Part shown: piece by piece, positions 47,490 through 64,000 of the stretch
Layout: every line of letters begins with the position of its first letter
Numbering within the stretch: the first letter of the stretch is position 1
Assembly: GCF_000515395.1 (NCBI RefSeq)
Contig: NZ_KI911782.1
Span: forward strand, 783,090 to 847,089
Direction: 5' to 3'
Source: Jiangella gansuensis DSM 44835
Lineage (GTDB): Bacteria; Actinomycetota; Actinomycetes; Jiangellales; Jiangellaceae
DNA length: 64,000 nucleotides
Position numbers and translations under genes: made by a program
Notes under the pieces: model-generated
Seen by the model: the letters and a program-made list of their open reading frames with translations, nothing else
Databases searched by the model: none
What the model was told of the DNA's origin: nothing

Positions 47490-48365
47490 ATGACCGACCG
47501 TCACCCCGTCACCGTCGTCGGCCTGGGCGCGATGGGCCGCGAGATCGCCCGAATCCTGCTCGAGGCCGGTCACCCCACCACCGTGTGGAACCGGACGCCG
47601 GGCCGCGCCGACGACCTCGTGGCCCGCGGCGCCATCCGCGCCGGGACCGTGGCACAGGCCGTTACGAGCAGCCCGCTCGTCCTGGTCTGTGTGCTCGACT
47701 GCGCCGTCACCCGCGAGCTGCTCGAGCCGATCGCGGCGGAGCTGACCGGCCGCACCGTCGTCCAGTTCACCACCGGCACCCCGGAGCAGGCCCGGGGCCT
47801 TGCCGCCTGGGCGGCCGGTCACGGCATCGACTACGTCGACAGCGGCATGATGGCCACCCCGCCGATGATCGGGACGCCGGACTCGACCTTCCTGTACAGC
47901 GGGGACCAGCAGGCGTTCGAGCGGTACCGCCCGACTCTCGACCTGGTCGGCACCAGTCGCTATCTCGGTGCCGACGCAGGTCTGGCCGGACTGTACGACC
48001 TCGCGCTGTTGTCCGGGATGTACACCATGTTCGCCGGCTTCGTGCACGGCGCGGCCATGGTCGGGACCGTCGGAGGGACGGCCGCCGATTTCGCCGAGAC
48101 AGCCGGCCACTGGATCCGTGCCACGTCGCACGCACTGCCGTACGCGGCACGGTTCATGGACAGCCGCGACTACACGACGGACGTGCAGAGTGTGGAGTTC
48201 AACAAGGCCGCGCTCGACGTCATCGTGCAGGCGAGCCGGGACCAGGGCGTCGCGATCGACCTGGTCGAGCCGATCCAGCGGCTGCTGGCCGAGCAGATCG
48301 CCCAAGGTCACGGCAAGGAGGCGTTCGACCGGATCATCGAGAGTATCCGGCCCAGCGCTGCCTGA
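47490..48365 (+). CDS. NAD(P)-binding oxidoreductase, imine-reductase-like
   Basis: A 291-residue beta-hydroxyacid-dehydrogenase-superfamily protein: VTVVGLGAMGREIARILLEAGHPTTVWNRTPGRADDL (NADP-binding Arg after strand 2), VVQFTTGTPEQARGLAAWAAGHGIDYVDSGMMATPPMIGTPDSTFLYSG, and the helical C-terminal domain LYDLALLSGMYTMFAGFVHGAAM. The lack of the canonical catalytic Lys and the GMMATPPMIG segment fit the IRED/reductive-aminase group common in actinomycetes. ATG 47490 follows AAGGAA. It may be the target of the divergent SARP. Confidence 0.9.
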   Translation: MTDRHPVTVVGLGAMGREIARILLEAGHPTTVWNRTPGRADDLVARGAIRAGTVAQAVTSSPLVLVCVLDCAVTRELLEPIAAELTGRTVVQFTTGTPEQARGLAAWAAGHGIDYVDSGMMATPPMIGTPDSTFLYSGDQQAFERYRPTLDLVGTSRYLGADAGLAGLYDLALLSGMYTMFAGFVHGAAMVGTVGGTAADFAETAGHWIRATSHALPYAARFMDSRDYTTDVQSVEFNKAALDVIVQASRDQGVAIDLVEPIQRLLAEQIAQGHGKEAFDRIIESIRPSAA

Positions 48366-53751: not shown

Positions 53752-53788
53752 TATAATGGATATCCAATTCGCACCAGAATGGATATTC

Positions 53789-53791
<3 letters not shown>
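53752..53791 (+). promoter_or_regulatory. Consensus -10 and twin operator of the aldo/keto reductase-GH2 operon
   Basis: A perfect -10 TATAAT (53752-53757), rare in this GC-rich window, is overlapped by AATGGATATCCA (53755-53766) and followed by AATGGATATTCA (53780-53791). The first contains the palindrome TGGATATCCA. The pair flanks the likely transcription start and ends at the ATG. No convincing -35, suggesting activator dependence or a LacI/GntR-type repressor. Confidence 0.55.
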
Positions 53792-57699
<3,908 letters not shown>

Positions 57700-57723: not shown

Positions 57724-58986
57724 TCAGCCGCCCAGCGCGCGCACGTCGGGGAAGAGGGTGTCGCCGCCGACCTGGCCGCCCTTGAGCAGCAGCTCGAGGC
57801 CGTCGATGGCGGGGTCGGCGGCGTGCGCGCGCAGGATGACCACGTTGCCCCACGGGTTCGCGGCCAGGGAGAGCGCCTCGACGCCCAGCCCGAGCGCGAC
57901 CCGGCCGGACGTGTCACCGCCGCAGACGACGACGCGGCGGGTCACCCCGGCGCGGACGGCGGCGTCGACCACAGCGGTCGCGGTCGCGGCGACGACGTCG
58001 AGGACAGGCCGTCCGGCGGTTGCGGATGTGTCGGCGTCGTCCGAGGTCAGGACGGCACTGCGGCCGCTGCGCAGCGTGTCCACCGTCTGCCGGATCACCT
58101 CGTCGCGACCCCTCGGAGCAAGCGGCAGCGGACACACCAGCCAGCCGTCGGCCGCGGCCGCGTCCGCCTGCCGCCGGGTCCGCGCGGAGCGGCTGCCGGA
58201 GACCACGAGCACGGGTCCCCGGGCGGCAGTGGCGGCCGGCGGGGGTGGGGCGCCCATCGGAGCTGCCGCGGCGATGCCATGGCTGAGGCCGCCCGAGCCG
58301 ATCGCGAAGACCGGTGCCGGGAGACGCAGCACGGCGTCGCCGACGGTGACCAGATGCTCGTCGGTCACCGCGTCCAGGACGAGTGCCGCCGCATCGCTGT
58401 CACTGATGCGGCCGGCGAGATCGCCGTCGTACGCCGTGACCGGCAGGGACCCGATCGGGAGCTCCGTCTGCCGTCCGACGTGGACGGCCAGCTCGGACTC
58501 GGTCATCGGTGTGGACGGGTGCGTCGACATGGTCGGCTGCCGGTCCAGCCGGTAGACGACGCCGTCCTCGGCGGCGAAGTGGTGGCCGAAGAAGGTGTAC
58601 CGGCCGAAGTCCGGCTGGGCGAACAGCATGGGCACCGGCCGGCCGGCGACGATCGCGCGACCGAGTTCGACGATGCGCCCGAGGCTGCCGACAGTGGGCG
58701 ACGAGTCCGCGGTGGAGCACGCCTTGTACTGGACGACGCGTGGCTCGAGGGCAGCCAGCGCCTGGAGCACCGGAGTCAGCTCGGCGTCCATGGTTGACGT
58801 CGGCAGTGACCGGGCGATGCCGGCGACCCCGACGACGTCGACCGACTCGGCGGCGCGGTGCAGCGCTTCGGGAGCCGGCAGGCGCGTGAAGAGCCGGCCC
58901 GTCCAGCCGCGCCGGGAGAACTGCAGCAACGCGTCCACGCTGCCGGTGAAGTCGTCGCCGTAGAACGCGGCGCGAGCTCTAGGCAC
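57724..58986 (-). CDS. DUF1537 sugar-acid kinase, OiaK-like
   Basis: A 420-residue four-carbon acid sugar kinase-family protein. N-terminal AFYGDDFTGSVDALLQFSRRGWTGRLF (substrate-binding GDDxTG), YKACSTADSSPTVGSLGRIVELG, FGRYTFFGHHFA, and C-terminal nucleotide-binding domain with VLVVSGSRSARTRRQ, VVVCGGDTSGRVALGL and LKGGQVGGDTLFPDV. The family phosphorylates sugar acids/keto-sugars with ATP. Paired with a RuBisCO-like protein it matches 3-oxo-isoapionate kinase. GTG 58986 overlaps the RLP stop (last 8 bp), so the pair is coupled. Last gene of a minus operon. Confidence 0.88.
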   Translation of the reverse strand: MPRARAAFYGDDFTGSVDALLQFSRRGWTGRLFTRLPAPEALHRAAESVDVVGVAGIARSLPTSTMDAELTPVLQALAALEPRVVQYKACSTADSSPTVGSLGRIVELGRAIVAGRPVPMLFAQPDFGRYTFFGHHFAAEDGVVYRLDRQPTMSTHPSTPMTESELAVHVGRQTELPIGSLPVTAYDGDLAGRISDSDAAALVLDAVTDEHLVTVGDAVLRLPAPVFAIGSGGLSHGIAAAAPMGAPPPPAATAARGPVLVVSGSRSARTRRQADAAAADGWLVCPLPLAPRGRDEVIRQTVDTLRSGRSAVLTSDDADTSATAGRPVLDVVAATATAVVDAAVRAGVTRRVVVCGGDTSGRVALGLGVEALSLAANPWGNVVILRAHAADPAIDGLELLLKGGQVGGDTLFPDVRALGG

Positions 58987-60235
58987 GGACCGGGCCGAAC
59001 AGCTCGGCGGCGCGGCGCAACGGCTGTGAGCGCGCGAACGCCGCGTCCGCCGTCTCGCCGAGCGCCGCGGACTCCCACGCTTCGCGCATGCTGGCCACAC
59101 CCGCCGCCGGTCCGTCCGGATGGCCGTGGATACCCCCGCCCGCCAGCACGAGCAGGTCGGTGGTGCCCACGGCGGCATAGGTCGCGTGTGCCAGCCCGCC
59201 CCATTGGCCGGACGACAGCACGGGCACGGTCGGGGTGAGCCCGAGAAGCGGCTCACGAACCGCGGCGATGGAGTCGAGCACTTGCGCATCGCTTTCGTAG
59301 AACTTGTTGCTGATGCCGTTCGTGTGCAGGTGATCGGCGCCGGCCAGGCGGGCGAGCTTCTGCCACGCGCGGAACCCTATCCCGATGTGGTCGGACCGGC
59401 TGATCGCCCCGAGCATCGCCCGGTGCCCGTGGATCGGCACCGTTGCGTGGCGGCGGATGAACTCGAGCCCGGCCAGGCCGACCGGGTTGACGCACACCAT
59501 GACGCAGGTGCCACCGGCCGCCACGACGAGGTCGTGGTTCGCGGCGAGCCGCCCGATGTCGTCGGTGATGTTGAACGCGTACATCGGCTTGGTGCCGGTG
59601 CGGTCGGCGTGGCGTTCGAGCACCGGCATGACGGCCCGGACCCGCTCGGCGAGCGGCGCGGACGGACCGTTGCCCTGCAGTTCGTCGTCCTTGATGAAGT
59701 CGACGCCCGCCTCGGCCAGCTGTGCCACCAGCTCGGCCAGCTCGGCAGGGGAGAGGCCGATGCTCGGCTTGATGATCGTCCCGATCATCGCCCCGTCGGA
59801 GCGGTTCATGAGCCGCCGGGTGCCCTCGACTCCGAACCCGGGACCGGGGTACCGCTGCGCGAACGCCTGCGGCAGCTCCAGATCGACGAGCTTGATGGCG
59901 GCGAACTGCTTGAGCTCGAACAGGTTGCCGGCGACCGCCGCGAGCAGGTTCGGCATCGACGGGCCGAAGTTGTCGAGGGGGAAGCGCAGGCTCAGCCGGG
60001 CCCGGCGCCGCTGGTCCGGGTCGCCGATCGACCCGGGAAGCGGCGAGCCGCCGGTGAGCGGCAGTTCCTCGAGCGCGTGTACCTGGGCGGCGAAGCGCGC
60101 GCGGAGGTCGTCGGACTCGCGTTCGACGCGGACGAACGTCCCGGTGGACTGCTCACCGGCCAGCACCTCGGCGGCGGCCGCGAGGGGCAGCGACGTCTCG
60201 ACGACGTAGGTGGCGATCACGTGCTGACTGGTCAT
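58979..60235 (-). CDS. RuBisCO-like protein, OiaX-like decarboxylase
   Basis: A 418-residue RuBisCO large-subunit superfamily protein. Key residues: K156 in GTIIKPSIGLS (catalytic Lys of loop), DFIKDDELQGNG with carbamylatable K182 and metal ligands D184/E185, HGHRAM (H271) and SGQWGG. The loop 6 Lys segment of true RuBisCO is not seen. Sequence form (SPAELAEL, TKPMYAFNITDD, HTNGISNKFYESD) fits the 3-oxo-isoapionate-4-phosphate decarboxylase group rather than the methionine-salvage enolase. Starts 5 bp after GH127 (ATG 60235) and is coupled to the kinase gene. Confidence 0.88.
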   Translation of the reverse strand: MTSQHVIATYVVETSLPLAAAAEVLAGEQSTGTFVRVERESDDLRARFAAQVHALEELPLTGGSPLPGSIGDPDQRRRARLSLRFPLDNFGPSMPNLLAAVAGNLFELKQFAAIKLVDLELPQAFAQRYPGPGFGVEGTRRLMNRSDGAMIGTIIKPSIGLSPAELAELVAQLAEAGVDFIKDDELQGNGPSAPLAERVRAVMPVLERHADRTGTKPMYAFNITDDIGRLAANHDLVVAAGGTCVMVCVNPVGLAGLEFIRRHATVPIHGHRAMLGAISRSDHIGIGFRAWQKLARLAGADHLHTNGISNKFYESDAQVLDSIAAVREPLLGLTPTVPVLSSGQWGGLAHATYAAVGTTDLLVLAGGGIHGHPDGPAAGVASMREAWESAALGETADAAFARSQPLRRAAELFGPVRA

Positions 60236-60240
60236 GCCGC

Positions 60241-62232
60241 TCACCAGACCACCGGGAGCCAGACGGACATCTCGCCTGGTCCGCGGTTGCCCCACGCGTA
60301 GTAGGGGACCAGCCGAGCCGAGGCGGCGGACACGTCGGCGTCGGCGAGGTCGGCGTACAGGGAGTCCGCTGCCGTGGCCGGGAGCACCGCCAGCTCGACG
60401 TCGAGGGCGACGACACGGTGGCCGTCGATGTCGGCGTCGACCGGGGTCAGCGGCACCCCGCGCCGCAGCGCCGCCTGCTCGAGCGACACCCCGCCCGGGA
60501 GGTCGGCGCTCTCGAGGCAGTAGACGAGCGGGCCACGGCGCACCGCGACCTGGTTGGTCGTCTCCTCGGCCAGGCGATGCGCGCGGACGACCCGCACCGG
60601 CATCGGCAGGGTCAGCTCGACTACGTCGCCGGAGCGCCACTCGCGATCGACCCGGGTGTAGGACCCCGGTGCGGTGACCGTGACGCTCTCGCCGTTGACG
60701 CGCAGCGCGGCGTCCGTCGCCCACCCCGGAATGCGCAGGTGCAGCGGCAGGCCCCCGCCGGCCGCCTCGGTGACGGTGAACGTGACGCGCTCGTGCCACG
60801 GGTAGTCGCTGTCCTCACGCAGCGCCAGCGAGCGGCCGCCGTCCGCCGAGACCCGCAGGTCGCTGCCGCCGTAGAGGTGTACGTAGAGGCCGTCGTCACC
60901 CAGTGCCGCGGCCCGTTCGTGGAAGCGCGCCAGCGTACGCGCGATGTTCGGCGGGCAGCAGAAGCAGGTGAGATACCCCTCGCGCAGCCGCGCGTCCGAG
61001 GGCGGCGGCTCGGGCGTGGGGTGGATGGCGGTGTCGCCCGGGCGTCGCAGCGGATACGGCAGGTCGCGCACCTGGCGCAACGGGTTCGTGTAGAAGTACT
61101 CGCCGCCGGCGAGGCTGATGCTGGCCAGCAGGCTGTTGAAGGCCACCTGCTCGATCACGTCGGCGTACTTCGCCTCACCCGTGAGCGACAGCATCCGCTC
61201 GCTCCACAGGATCATGCCGATGTTGGCGCACGACTCGTTGTGGGCCGTCGTGTGCGGCAGCTGGTACGGCCGGCCGTATGCCTGGTGGACCCGGCTGATC
61301 TGGTTCTGCCACGGATACCCGTCGGGTGACGCGCCGTCGTACAGCGCGCCGCAGCCACCGGTGAGGTAGAGCTTCGTGTCGACGACGTCGAGCCACAGCC
61401 GCTCCAGGACCGCGGCGAGCTCCTGGTCGCCGGTCTCGGTGACGAGATCCGCGAGGCCCGCGTAGAGGTAGTTGGCGCGAACGGCATGTCCGGCCACCAC
61501 GGTCTGCTCGCGCACCGGCAGCCGGTCCTGGTTGTCGTCGCCGCCCTGGAAGTCGTCGCGTACCCGGACGAAGGCCTCGGCCAGCCGGAGGCAACGCTCG
61601 TCCCCCGTGGCCCGGTAGAGATCGACCACCGCCATGTAGTGCGACGGGCAGATCGCGCTGCGGGCGAGCTCGAGGGGCTTGTCGGCGGCGAGGTGTTCGA
61701 GGTAGCCGGCGGCCTTCTTCGCCACCTCGAGCAGCGTGGTCGAACCGGTGACCTCGTAGTGGCGCACTCCGGCGGTGATGAGGTGGCCCAGGTTGTAGGT
61801 CTCGAAGTGGAAGCGGTCGGCCAGCTCCGACACGCTCTCCTGGTTGCGCGCGGCGATGATGGTCGGCGTGTGCAGGTAGCCGTCCTCGCGCTGTACCGAG
61901 GCGATGAGCGCGGCGATGTCCTCGACGGTGGCGGCGAGCTCCGGGTCCGGGTCGGTGCCGAGGCACGAGATCGCCGCTTCCAGCCACTTGTAGAGGTCGC
62001 CGTCCATGAACGGCGGGCCGGAGTGACGGCCCGGCTCGAGGCCGGCGGCGATGCGGAAGTTCGCGAGGCCGGGACTGACCTGCGGGTTCCGCAGCGACGC
62101 CCAGATCTGGGGGATCGTCACATCGCGCGTACGGCCGCGGACCTCTCCCCAGAAGCCTCCCGTCCAGCGGGCGTTGTCGGCACCGAGCGGCCTCAGCCGG
62201 GCGTGCGCCCGGAGCGCTGTCGTGGCAGGCAT
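60241..62232 (-). CDS. GH127 beta-L-arabinofuranosidase
   Basis: A 663-residue (alpha/alpha)6-barrel protein with beta domains. N-terminal RWTGGFWGEVRGRTRDVTIPQIWASLRNP, barrel with GRPYQLPHTTAHNESCANIGMILWSERML (E333, C335) and the zinc-thiolate site LTCFCCPPNIARTLARF (C423, C425, C426). These match HypBA1: three Cys and a Glu coordinate Zn, and one Cys (C425) is the nucleophile. No signal peptide. ATG 62232 is behind GGAAGGA. First gene of the GH127-RLP-DUF1537 operon. It cleaves beta-L-arabinofuranosides from plant glycans, but related families also act on other sugars. Confidence 0.92.
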   Translation of the reverse strand: MPATTALRAHARLRPLGADNARWTGGFWGEVRGRTRDVTIPQIWASLRNPQVSPGLANFRIAAGLEPGRHSGPPFMDGDLYKWLEAAISCLGTDPDPELAATVEDIAALIASVQREDGYLHTPTIIAARNQESVSELADRFHFETYNLGHLITAGVRHYEVTGSTTLLEVAKKAAGYLEHLAADKPLELARSAICPSHYMAVVDLYRATGDERCLRLAEAFVRVRDDFQGGDDNQDRLPVREQTVVAGHAVRANYLYAGLADLVTETGDQELAAVLERLWLDVVDTKLYLTGGCGALYDGASPDGYPWQNQISRVHQAYGRPYQLPHTTAHNESCANIGMILWSERMLSLTGEAKYADVIEQVAFNSLLASISLAGGEYFYTNPLRQVRDLPYPLRRPGDTAIHPTPEPPPSDARLREGYLTCFCCPPNIARTLARFHERAAALGDDGLYVHLYGGSDLRVSADGGRSLALREDSDYPWHERVTFTVTEAAGGGLPLHLRIPGWATDAALRVNGESVTVTAPGSYTRVDREWRSGDVVELTLPMPVRVVRAHRLAEETTNQVAVRRGPLVYCLESADLPGGVSLEQAALRRGVPLTPVDADIDGHRVVALDVELAVLPATAADSLYADLADADVSAASARLVPYYAWGNRGPGEMSVWLPVVW

Positions 62233-62307: not shown

Positions 62308-62346
62308 AGGTTACGGCCGCATGCAAGTTCTCGCAAGCCTGCATGG
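62308..62346 (-). promoter_or_regulatory. Promoter and inverted repeat of the GH127 operon
   Basis: On the minus strand, TTGCGA (62331-62336) and TAACCT (62308-62313) are 17 bp apart, a good sigma-70 spacing. The arms CATGCA (62320-62325) and TGCATG (62341-62346) bracket the -35 and could bind a LacI-type repressor shared with the divergent transporter. Confidence 0.5.
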
Positions 62347-62394
62347 AAATGCAGAAAGCCGCGTTGAAATGAATAGAAATTCAAGATTGACTGT

Positions 62395-62423: not shown

Positions 62424-62469
62424 GTGCGTCGAACCCCGTAGCCGCGTGGTCGCCGTCAAGGAGGACGTC

Positions 62470-63786
62470 ATGGTCAGCCGCCGTAACCGCCGGAAGCCGA
62501 CGGCAGCCGGTCTCGCACTCGTCACCGTCGTGACCCTCTCGGCCTGTGGTGGCGACGACGCCACCGACGGTGGTGCCGGCGGGGATCCCGAAGCGTTCAC
62601 AGTACTGACGGCCAACGAGAACGCGACGCTCGAGGCGCAGCTCACGGCCCTCGCCGAGAACCAGTGCAAGGCCGAGAACGAGGCCCTGCCGATGGAACAC
62701 CAGAAGACGGCGCAGGCCGACACCGTCCAGAAGGTCACGCTGCTGGCGAGCCAGGACTCGTTGCCGGCGCACTTCATCGCCGGTACCGCGATGGTCCGGC
62801 CCGACGGCGACCTCGGCGCCGCGGGGAAGGTCGTCGACTACGAGGAACTGCTCACCGAGGCCGGGGCGTGGGACAACATCCTGCCCGCGGCCGCGTCGAC
62901 GGTGGAGCACATCTACGGCGGCATGGTCTCGTTGCCGTACCAGTACAACCTCGAGGGCATCTGGTACAACAAAGCGATCTTCGCCGAGGTTGGGCTCTCC
63001 GAGCCGCAGACCTTCGACCAGCTGCTCGCCGCCGGCGAGGAACTCCTCGCGGCCGGCCACCAGCCGTTCGCGCAGGCAGGCGCAGCCGGATGGCCGCTGA
63101 CACGGATCATCGGGATGTACATCTTCCGCAACGTCGGCCCCGACGCCATGGAGAAGATCCGCGACGGCGAGGCATCCCTCACCGACCCGGAGTACCTCGC
63201 CGGTGCCGAGGCACTCCAGCAGATGGCCGAGAGCGGCTTCTTCGGCGAGGGATTCATCTCGCTCGAGCCCGATGCGGCGACGGCGGCGTTCCTCAGCGGC
63301 CGGGCGGCCATGAAGTACGACGGCACCTGGGCGCTGAGCAACATCAACGACGAAGAACAGAACCAGATCGGCCTCGAGAACGTCGGCTTCATGCCGTTCC
63401 CCGACGTCGAAGGCGGCGCGGGCAGCGTCGACCAGTGGCCCGCGAACGCCGGCGCGGCGATGGCGGCCAACCCGGACACCGCCGGACCCAAGGTCACCGC
63501 CTGGTTGGAGTGCATCGCCGAGAACTACGGAGAGCAGGCGCTGTCCGACGCCGGCGTCCTGTCGGGCTTCCGCGTCAACGGCGAGGTCACGGACATCCCG
63601 GAGACCACGAAGCTCGTGCAGGAGAAGATCGCGGAGATCGACGAGACCGTCGCCTGGTTCGAAGCCCTCTTCGACGCCAAGTCCAACTCGCTCGCGTCGA
63701 CGAACGTGACCCTGCTGACGACCGGTCAGATGACGCCCGAGCAGTACATGACCGAGCTCCAAGCGAGCATCGACGCCGCCCGCTGA
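62470..63786 (+). CDS. Sugar ABC transporter substrate-binding lipoprotein
   Basis: A 438-residue family-1 solute-binding protein. Signal peptide VSRRNRRKPTAAGLALVTVVTLSACGG with lipobox LSAC. SBP_bac_1 features: FTVLTANENATLEAQLTALAENQC, YGGMVSLPYQYNLEGIWYNKAIFAEVGL, QTFDQLLAAGEELLAAGHQPFAQAG, FLSGRAAMKYDGTWALSNIND. ATG 62470 has a perfect AAGGAGG 6 nt upstream. Divergent from the GH127 operon; probably binds an arabinofuranose- or galactose-containing oligosaccharide. Confidence 0.93.
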   Translation: MVSRRNRRKPTAAGLALVTVVTLSACGGDDATDGGAGGDPEAFTVLTANENATLEAQLTALAENQCKAENEALPMEHQKTAQADTVQKVTLLASQDSLPAHFIAGTAMVRPDGDLGAAGKVVDYEELLTEAGAWDNILPAAASTVEHIYGGMVSLPYQYNLEGIWYNKAIFAEVGLSEPQTFDQLLAAGEELLAAGHQPFAQAGAAGWPLTRIIGMYIFRNVGPDAMEKIRDGEASLTDPEYLAGAEALQQMAESGFFGEGFISLEPDAATAAFLSGRAAMKYDGTWALSNINDEEQNQIGLENVGFMPFPDVEGGAGSVDQWPANAGAAMAANPDTAGPKVTAWLECIAENYGEQALSDAGVLSGFRVNGEVTDIPETTKLVQEKIAEIDETVAWFEALFDAKSNSLASTNVTLLTTGQMTPEQYMTELQASIDAAR

Positions 63787-63824: not shown

Positions 63825-64000
63825 ATGAATCGCGTATTCGGAGACCGCAAGACGATCCTGATCCTCTTGCTGCCGACGCTGGCGATCTACGTTCTCTTCA
63901 AGGTCGTACCCGTCGCGTGGTCCCTGGGCCTCTCGTTCTTCGAAGGCAACACCCTGCGCGGCTTCGAGTTCGTCGGCTTCGACAACTTCACGACGTTCTT
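63825..64000 (+). CDS. Sugar ABC transporter permease (partial, MalF-like)
   Basis: The first 58 residues of a permease cut by the window end. MNRVFGDRKTILILLLPTLAIYVLFKVVPVAWSLGLSFFEGNTLRGFEFVGFDNFTTF carries the first transmembrane helix and the usual N-terminal 'WxLxxSF...FVGxxNF' motif of MalF/UgpA-type permeases. ATG 63825 is 38 bp after the SBP stop. Likely second gene of the importer. Confidence 0.92.
   Translation, partial: MNRVFGDRKTILILLLPTLAIYVLFKVVPVAWSLGLSFFEGNTLRGFEFVGFDNFTTF

Follow-up and report, generated by a model that had tools for sequence, protein, structure and literature searches.

Locus organization

The 64,000-nucleotide window from Jiangella gansuensis DSM 44835 contains, at positions 57724-62232, three tightly packed genes on the minus strand (open reading frame list and Pfam). 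They encode a GH127 glycoside hydrolase, a RuBisCO-like protein (RLP) and a DUF1537 kinase (Table 1). Five bases separate GH127 from RLP, and with its likely GTG start the kinase gene has an 8-base overlap with the end of RLP. An initial annotation had described these genes as one operon for apiose or arabinose catabolism. The operon itself is confirmed, and the same gene set recurs across many genomes, so the arrangement is not due to chance. The J. gansuensis genome is a single contig of 5.59 Mb, and this RLP is its sole RuBisCO-family match. Together with a divergently transcribed partner, which encodes an ATP-binding cassette (ABC) importer and a racemase-like protein (RAC), the operon probably forms a module for utilization of L-aceric acid. 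This sugar is characteristic of side chain B of rhamnogalacturonan-II (RG-II).

The two halves of the module meet at one promoter region. The inverted repeat TGAATTTCTATTCA in this region is the only match in the genome, even allowing up to 2 mismatches, and as many as 13 of the 19 homologous intergenic regions contain 9-mers from it. RAC and the importer thus have a control region in common with GH127, RLP and the kinase, one that the apionate operon lacks.

Table 1. Genes and promoter elements of the locus (window positions unless marked as genome coordinates).
Feature	Position	Strand	Basis and remarks
Aldo/keto reductase	53786..54736	+	PF00248; 4-base overlap with GH2; family found in a minority of homologous loci
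LacZ-type GH2 beta-galactosidase	54733..57699	+	Pfam GH2/LacZ domains; best PDB match 6etz, 750 bits; convergent with kinase
DUF1537 acid-sugar kinase	57724..58986	-	PF07005 and PF17042; likely GTG start at 58986, read from sequence
RLP, 418 residues	58979..60235	-	PF00016, PF02788; NF042437 (OiaX) 407 bits
GH127 glycoside hydrolase, predicted aceric-acid-hydrolase (BT_1003) class	60241..62232	-	PF07944/PF20736/PF20737; alternative start upstream, 62256
Second inverted repeat, CTGCAT-N4-ATGCAG	62339..62354	.	Seen in sequence of divergent promoter region
Operator-like inverted repeat TGAATTTCTATTCA	62370..62383	.	Divergent promoter, between GH127 and ABC binding protein
ABC solute-binding protein	62446..63786	+	PF01547, PF13416; head-to-head with GH127
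First ABC permease	63825..64000	+	Open reading frame list; runs on beyond window
RAC, Asp/Glu-racemase-like	genome 848716-849378	+	PF01177, marker profiles; after second ABC permease, same strand

The GH127 protein is closest to an aceric acid hydrolase

GH127 carries the Pfam catalytic, middle and C-terminal GH127 domains (E 1.8e-97). In a PDB search it matched 5mqo at 645 bits, versus 342 for the GH127 arabinofuranosidase 4qjy and 255 for HypBA1-type entries (3wkw). We take 5mqo to be BT_1003 of Bacteroides thetaiotaomicron. It is the closest solved structure across the full length, and the E-S-C and C-F-C-C motifs, which are presumably catalytic, are conserved in the alignment. Judged by sequence, the closest characterized relative of GH127 is BT_1003, clearly separate from the arabinofuranosidases. 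The beta-L-arabinofuranosidase named in the initial annotation is not supported. Among 393 actinomycete genomes, GH127 bit scores fall in two sets, at least 640 versus at most 437. Unlike BT_1003, the J. gansuensis protein is encoded together with genes of sugar-acid catabolism in one operon and scores under the curated equivalog cut-off.

BT_1003 is named as an aceric acid hydrolase in two papers (PMC5698469, PMC10850190). Its sugar, 3-C-carboxy-5-deoxy-L-xylose, is given for RG-II as ->2)-alpha-L-AcefA-(1->3, in a side chain B that contains rhamnose (Rha), methylfucose (MeFuc), arabinose (Ara), galactose (Gal), aceric acid (AceA) and apiose (Api) (PMC8218411).

In Acidobacteria and sphingomonads, RLP and kinase have a second, very distant GH127-like family of about 640 residues next to them or close by (loci L073, L076, L077, L081 and L126:10187-12001). 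It may be a further glycosidase acting on this sugar.

GH127 and RAC accompany the RLP across phyla

We scanned GTDB genomes with the RLP and compared 85 loci: the best 80 of 581 relatives, the J. gansuensis locus and those of four other Jiangella. Loci were labeled with profile hidden Markov models, built on clusters of these loci and run on six-frame translations. Flanks reached at most about 10 kb, and ApnO (the apionate oxidoisomerase) at a greater distance does not count in the labels. The GH127 class is present in 38 loci, RAC in 46 and ApnO in 32, with none of the three in 8. RAC accompanies GH127 in 37 of 38 loci, the exception (L013) being truncated by a contig end. ApnO is found in none of the 38 GH127-class loci and in 2 of the 46 RAC loci. 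The GH127 label requires 4 changes when mapped on the RLP tree, versus a shuffled mean of 28. One actinobacterial clade holds 35 of the 38 GH127 rows; the rest belong to Planctomycetota, Verrucomicrobiota and Chloroflexota.

Across these four phyla, GH127, RLP, kinase and RAC occur in five gene orders. J. gansuensis has GH127-RLP-kinase, with RAC inside the divergent ABC operon, and the four other Jiangella have RLP-kinase-GH127-RAC. Bythopirellula has RLP-kinase-RAC-transporter, with GH127 on the opposite strand. The order is GH127-GH78-RLP-kinase-RAC in Opitutales (L070), beside what we take to be transketolase-type apiose genes, and GH2-GH127-RLP-kinase-RAC in Chloroflexota. On a Rufibacter tibetensis plasmid, the annotation independently lists, one after another, an RLP, a four-carbon acid sugar kinase, members of the aspartate/glutamate racemase and bile acid:sodium symporter families, and a pectinesterase. 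The RG-II or apiose glycan setting envisaged in the initial annotation is supported.

The association also holds in genomes that were chosen independently of the RLP. With thresholds of at least 640 bits for GH127 and at least 500 bits for RLP, the RLP is present in all 8 genomes that carry GH127 among 393 from actinomycetes, versus 3 of the 385 others (Fisher p 1.3e-14, kinship ignored). Six of the 8 belong to the genus Jiangella itself, and in one of the 3 RLP-only genomes (G013) the RLP is near a contig end. The two genes lie within a few kb of each other in 7 of the 8 and on separate contigs in G519. Within Jiangella, 6 genomes have both, 5 have neither and 1 has RLP alone. In a set of 50 genomes, the GH127 class (at least 640 bits) occurs in 5 of 12 with RAC and 0 of 38 without.

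Apionate genes form a separate operon

The initial annotation had suggested looking past 64 kb for apionate genes, and lactonase- and oxidoisomerase-like genes are indeed found 18-21 kb beyond the window. They belong to a minus-strand operon at genome 865393-871904 (18-25 kb past the window) with ApnL-, ApnO-, OiaC-, TIM-, RpiB- and DhaK-like genes. The ApnL-like protein (apionate lactonase) scores 184 bits against a cut-off of 750. The ApnO-like protein is 34% identical to canonical ApnO, has no curated model match and lies about 24 kb from RLP. Next to it is a TIM-barrel protein that, from its context, we take to be OiaC, the 3-oxo-isoapionate decarboxylase, its curated matches being weak. 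The RpiB-like protein scores 202 bits as ribose-5-phosphate isomerase (above cut-off) and 153 as D-erythrulose-4-phosphate isomerase (below cut-off). A dihydroxyacetone-kinase family protein (739 bits, above cut-off) and a triosephosphate-isomerase-like protein are also encoded. Apionate can be catabolized by an ApnO-OiaC-L-erythrulose route, and these genes look like a complete branch of that kind. The branch shares a genome with the GH127 operon and differs in using OiaC and a dihydroxyacetone-kinase-type enzyme, with neither an RLP nor a DUF1537 kinase.

Since apionate has its own ApnO-OiaC operon, the RLP is not needed for it, and we rejected the simple apionate reading as the main explanation. 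The presence of apionate genes in the genome also weakens any argument from their absence and shifts the question to gene linkage. We searched 45 genomes with J. gansuensis ApnO as the query. Of 31 actinobacterial genomes that carry the module, J. gansuensis included, 30 have a strong ApnO match; the same 30 have an OiaC-like gene, each within 60 bases of ApnO. Desertihabitans has the module and neither ApnO nor OiaC. ApnO was not found in any of the 10 tested non-actinobacterial genomes with an RLP-kinase-RAC locus and no linked ApnO (a 19-bit partial match was not counted), while two control genomes with apionate operons gave 164 and 193 bits. With this linkage, the assignment of the GH127-RLP-kinase operon to the apionate branch, as first annotated, is unlikely. 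ApnL-like lactonase genes do lie at most 10 kb from the module in three Microbacterium genomes (L022, L025 and L029, 5' ends).

A variant of the apionate reading would have the kinase and RLP use ApnO-made 3-oxo-isoapionate in parallel to OiaC, with GH127 linked because both sugars come from RG-II. The co-occurrence of ApnO with the actinobacterial module would suit this, as would the best NCBIfam matches of the two enzymes, OiaK and OiaX. In addition, 30 of the 85 loci have RLP and kinase with ApnO and no RAC or aceric-acid-hydrolase-class GH127, like a canonical apionate operon. However, actinobacterial ApnO adjoins OiaC and not RLP or kinase, neither enzyme reaches its curated cut-off, and both Desertihabitans and the 10 RAC-type genomes dispense with ApnO. 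This variant also leaves RAC unexplained, and we consider it improbable.

Family placement of the RLP and kinase

The RLP is a clear RuBisCO family member (RuBisCO_large, E 1.8e-65) with a confidently predicted structure (predicted local distance difference test, pLDDT, 91.6). It is 92% identical to the Jiangella asiatica protein and 86% to the next best among the matches listed. Its best NCBIfam model is OiaX (3-oxo-isoapionate-4-phosphate decarboxylase), with a curated cut-off of 700 that its score does not reach; OiaX from Rhizobiaceae score 731-789 bits on the same model. For the kinase, the best model is OiaK (3-oxo-isoapionate kinase, NF042436) at 257 bits, again under a cut-off of 700. 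The two proteins had initially been named OiaX and OiaK. The place of the RLP in the 3-oxo-isoapionate branch of the superfamily is supported, but with scores of 407 and 257 the specific names are not.

The RLP keeps K156, K182, N89, H304, K311 and S342, which we take to be K175, K201, N123, H327, K334 and S379 in RuBisCO numbering. Positions 89 and 304 set it apart from rhizobial OiaX, which has Ala and Gln instead of Asn and His in 14 of 14 sequences (15 loci found, 14 above cut-off used). Asn and His are kept in all GH127- and RAC-linked RLPs and in nearly all ApnO-linked ones. Mean identity is 50% to ApnO-linked Xanthobacteraceae RLPs, which are only presumed to be OiaT and do not include the characterized Xanthobacter sequence, and 40% to OiaX. 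NCBIfam scans turned up no OiaT model. A Xanthobacter RLP is reported as a transcarboxylase/hydrolase (PMC6302742). Taken together, the retained N89 and H304, the closeness to Xanthobacteraceae RLPs and this reported activity weakly favor split products, which would be 3-phosphoglycerate and lactate, over decarboxylation.

Position 270 was considered as a specificity switch and rejected. All 46 rows of the aceric acid hydrolase or RAC type have Gly there, and 39 of 46 ApnO or OiaX rows have Ala, a count that leaves out 11 mixed-context rows and includes three loci without RAC in the examined stretch (L013, L077, L126). Gly is also found in ApnO-linked L086, L048, L079, L060, L045, L088 and L087, and Ala in L063. 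These exceptions make the position suggestive only.

RAC keeps a single catalytic cysteine

RAC matches PF01177 at 64.5 bits (cut-off 31). Its AlphaFold model (pLDDT 96) has the Asp/Glu racemase fold and aligns with 3s81_A (Z 22.2, root-mean-square deviation 2.4, 210 residues). The first catalytic cysteine, Cys78, is present in 42 of 42 sequences. The second is present in none; its position is Ala or Gly, within a LAQASMA/LAQGSMA motif. Thus RAC shares the fold and first cysteine of the Asp/Glu/hydantoin racemase superfamily (aspartate racemase, allantoin racemase, arylmalonate decarboxylase), but lacks the cysteine pair of a two-base racemase in all 42 sequences and is linked to sugar-acid genes. 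We infer that a single base would suit a 1,2-proton shift, as in the isomerization of an aldose to a ketose.

A proposed route for L-aceric acid

From the gene content, its conservation and co-occurrence, the family assignments and the conserved residues, we infer a substrate, L-aceric acid, and a series of reactions. GH127 would release L-aceric acid from side chain B of RG-II, pieces of which probably enter the cell through the divergent ABC importer. RAC, using its one conserved cysteine, would isomerize the aldose to the 2-ketose HOCH2-CO-C(OH)(COOH)-CHOH-CH3. The kinase would then phosphorylate the CH2OH next to the ketone, and the RLP would remove the beta-keto carboxylate by one of two routes. 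In the first, the products would be CO2 and 5-deoxy-pentulose 1-phosphate, and an aldolase would give dihydroxyacetone phosphate and acetaldehyde. In the second, hinted at by the conserved residues, the RLP would move the carboxylate and hydrolyze the product to 3-phosphoglycerate and lactate. RAC, kinase and RLP would then make up a three-enzyme route with no aldolase and no net loss of CO2, which we put forward tentatively, as less probable than the module assignment itself.

The proposed ketose would be a methyl homolog of 3-oxo-isoapionate, a substrate that this pair of enzymes is known to use. 3-Oxo-isoapionate is HOCH2-CO-C(OH)(COOH)-CH2OH, and the proposed ketose is the same molecule with CH2OH replaced by CHOH-CH3, so the atoms on which kinase and RLP act would be unchanged. 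The OiaK-OiaX and OiaK-OiaT branches of the D-apionate pathway, reportedly described by Carter et al. in 2018 (cited in PMC6302742), likewise have adjacent DUF1537 kinase and RLP genes and a beta-keto branched acid phosphate as substrate. Unlike the D-apionate operon, the J. gansuensis operon has no ApnO adjoining RLP and kinase, and has RAC and a GH127 of the aceric acid hydrolase class instead.

The frequent co-occurrence of ApnO means that the module could have a role in both pathways. The kinase and RLP might accept 3-oxo-isoapionate 4-phosphate as well as its aceric-acid homolog, so that RG-II apiose and aceric acid drain together. The two substrates would differ by a single methyl group, and Acidobacteria loci L054 and L063 combine RLP, kinase, ApnO and RAC, the L063 genome also having GH127. 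In J. gansuensis, however, OiaC and an L-erythrulose kinase-like gene are already available for apionate, and the ApnO operon lacks the operator of the module. We consider such a dual role quite improbable.

Several observations weigh against the assignment to aceric acid. The best NCBIfam model for GH127, NF049879 (aceric acid hydrolase), gives 775 bits, under its curated cut-off of 950; homologs score 998 beside RLP in Chloroflexota and 1196 elsewhere in an Olivibacter genome. ApnO accompanies the module in almost all of the actinobacterial genomes searched. The GH127 class is missing from 7 of the 12 RAC genomes outside Actinobacteria, and in locus L128, on a Streptomyces plasmid, RLP and kinase are present but neither RAC nor GH127 is matched. 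No sugar isomerase of the Asp/Glu racemase fold is known to us. The loci contain no conserved aldolase: a phmmer search from the class II aldolase of L046 found L046 alone. Finally, GH127 members are described as having several specificities (PMC5698469).

That last point could also mean that GH127 frees a different furanoside and that the substrate is another RG-II-linked or plant branched acid sugar, for example of the hamamelose type. An RLP is placed in a hamamelose pathway ending in 3-phosphoglycerate and glycolate by a second-hand report (PMC8914248). Against this, GH127 is specifically closest to BT_1003.

We also know of no C-carboxy branched sugar in RG-II other than aceric acid, and regard a different substrate as very improbable.

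L-aceric acid is thus the substrate that we favor. Its releasing enzyme is already known and the catabolic route would be new: the literature searched describes no aceric acid catabolic route, and none of its papers connects aceric acid to an RLP or to DUF1537. The genes of the module are named, its proposed steps follow a chemically specific order, and the apionate operon of the same genome serves as an internal control. If the proposal is true, it would give RuBisCO-like proteins a new substrate and perhaps a new reaction, and the Asp/Glu racemase fold would gain a sugar isomerase. Where RLP and DUF1537 genes lack an adjoining ApnO, annotation as apionate catabolism is best avoided.

Neighboring genes and other loci

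The GH2 enzyme, the reductase (initially an aldose dehydrogenase) and the sugar importer said to face the operon all exist. Only the importer is head-to-head with it, at GH127; GH2 and the reductase are tail-to-tail with the kinase. The GH2 enzyme BT_0993 takes off galactose beta-1,2-linked to aceric acid (PMC11739564). The GH2 at this locus is of an ordinary LacZ type by sequence, so that only its presence fits the parallel.

Past RAC, on the opposite strand, are a match to a SorC/DeoR-type regulator cluster and a GH78 rhamnosidase; further along are a GH140-like apiosidase (PF13204, 68.6 bits) and a GH42 protein. Two oxidoreductase families occur in too few of the searched loci to be core pathway steps: the aldo/keto reductase in 9, with two weak matches, and SDR17 in 12, with one weak match.

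The Planctomycete module has a class II aldolase nearby (L046:6580-7332), the only one noticed among the compared loci, which could cut 5-deoxy-pentulose 1-phosphate if the RLP decarboxylates there; J. gansuensis has four class II aldolase-family matches, all outside the locus. In Paenibacillus lautus (L051:5221-9269), a second DUF1537-like protein, a PdxA-like protein (by eye) and a 575-residue protein without a Pfam match adjoin RAC-RLP-kinase. A haloarchaeal plasmid (L129:9998-13499) encodes an RLP, an acid sugar kinase, an ApnO-like protein and a GntP permease, a set of apionate-type genes in archaea. Within the window, positions 47490-48365 encode an imine reductase/reductive-aminase-like protein (PF21761, PF03446) with no relation to the sugar genes.

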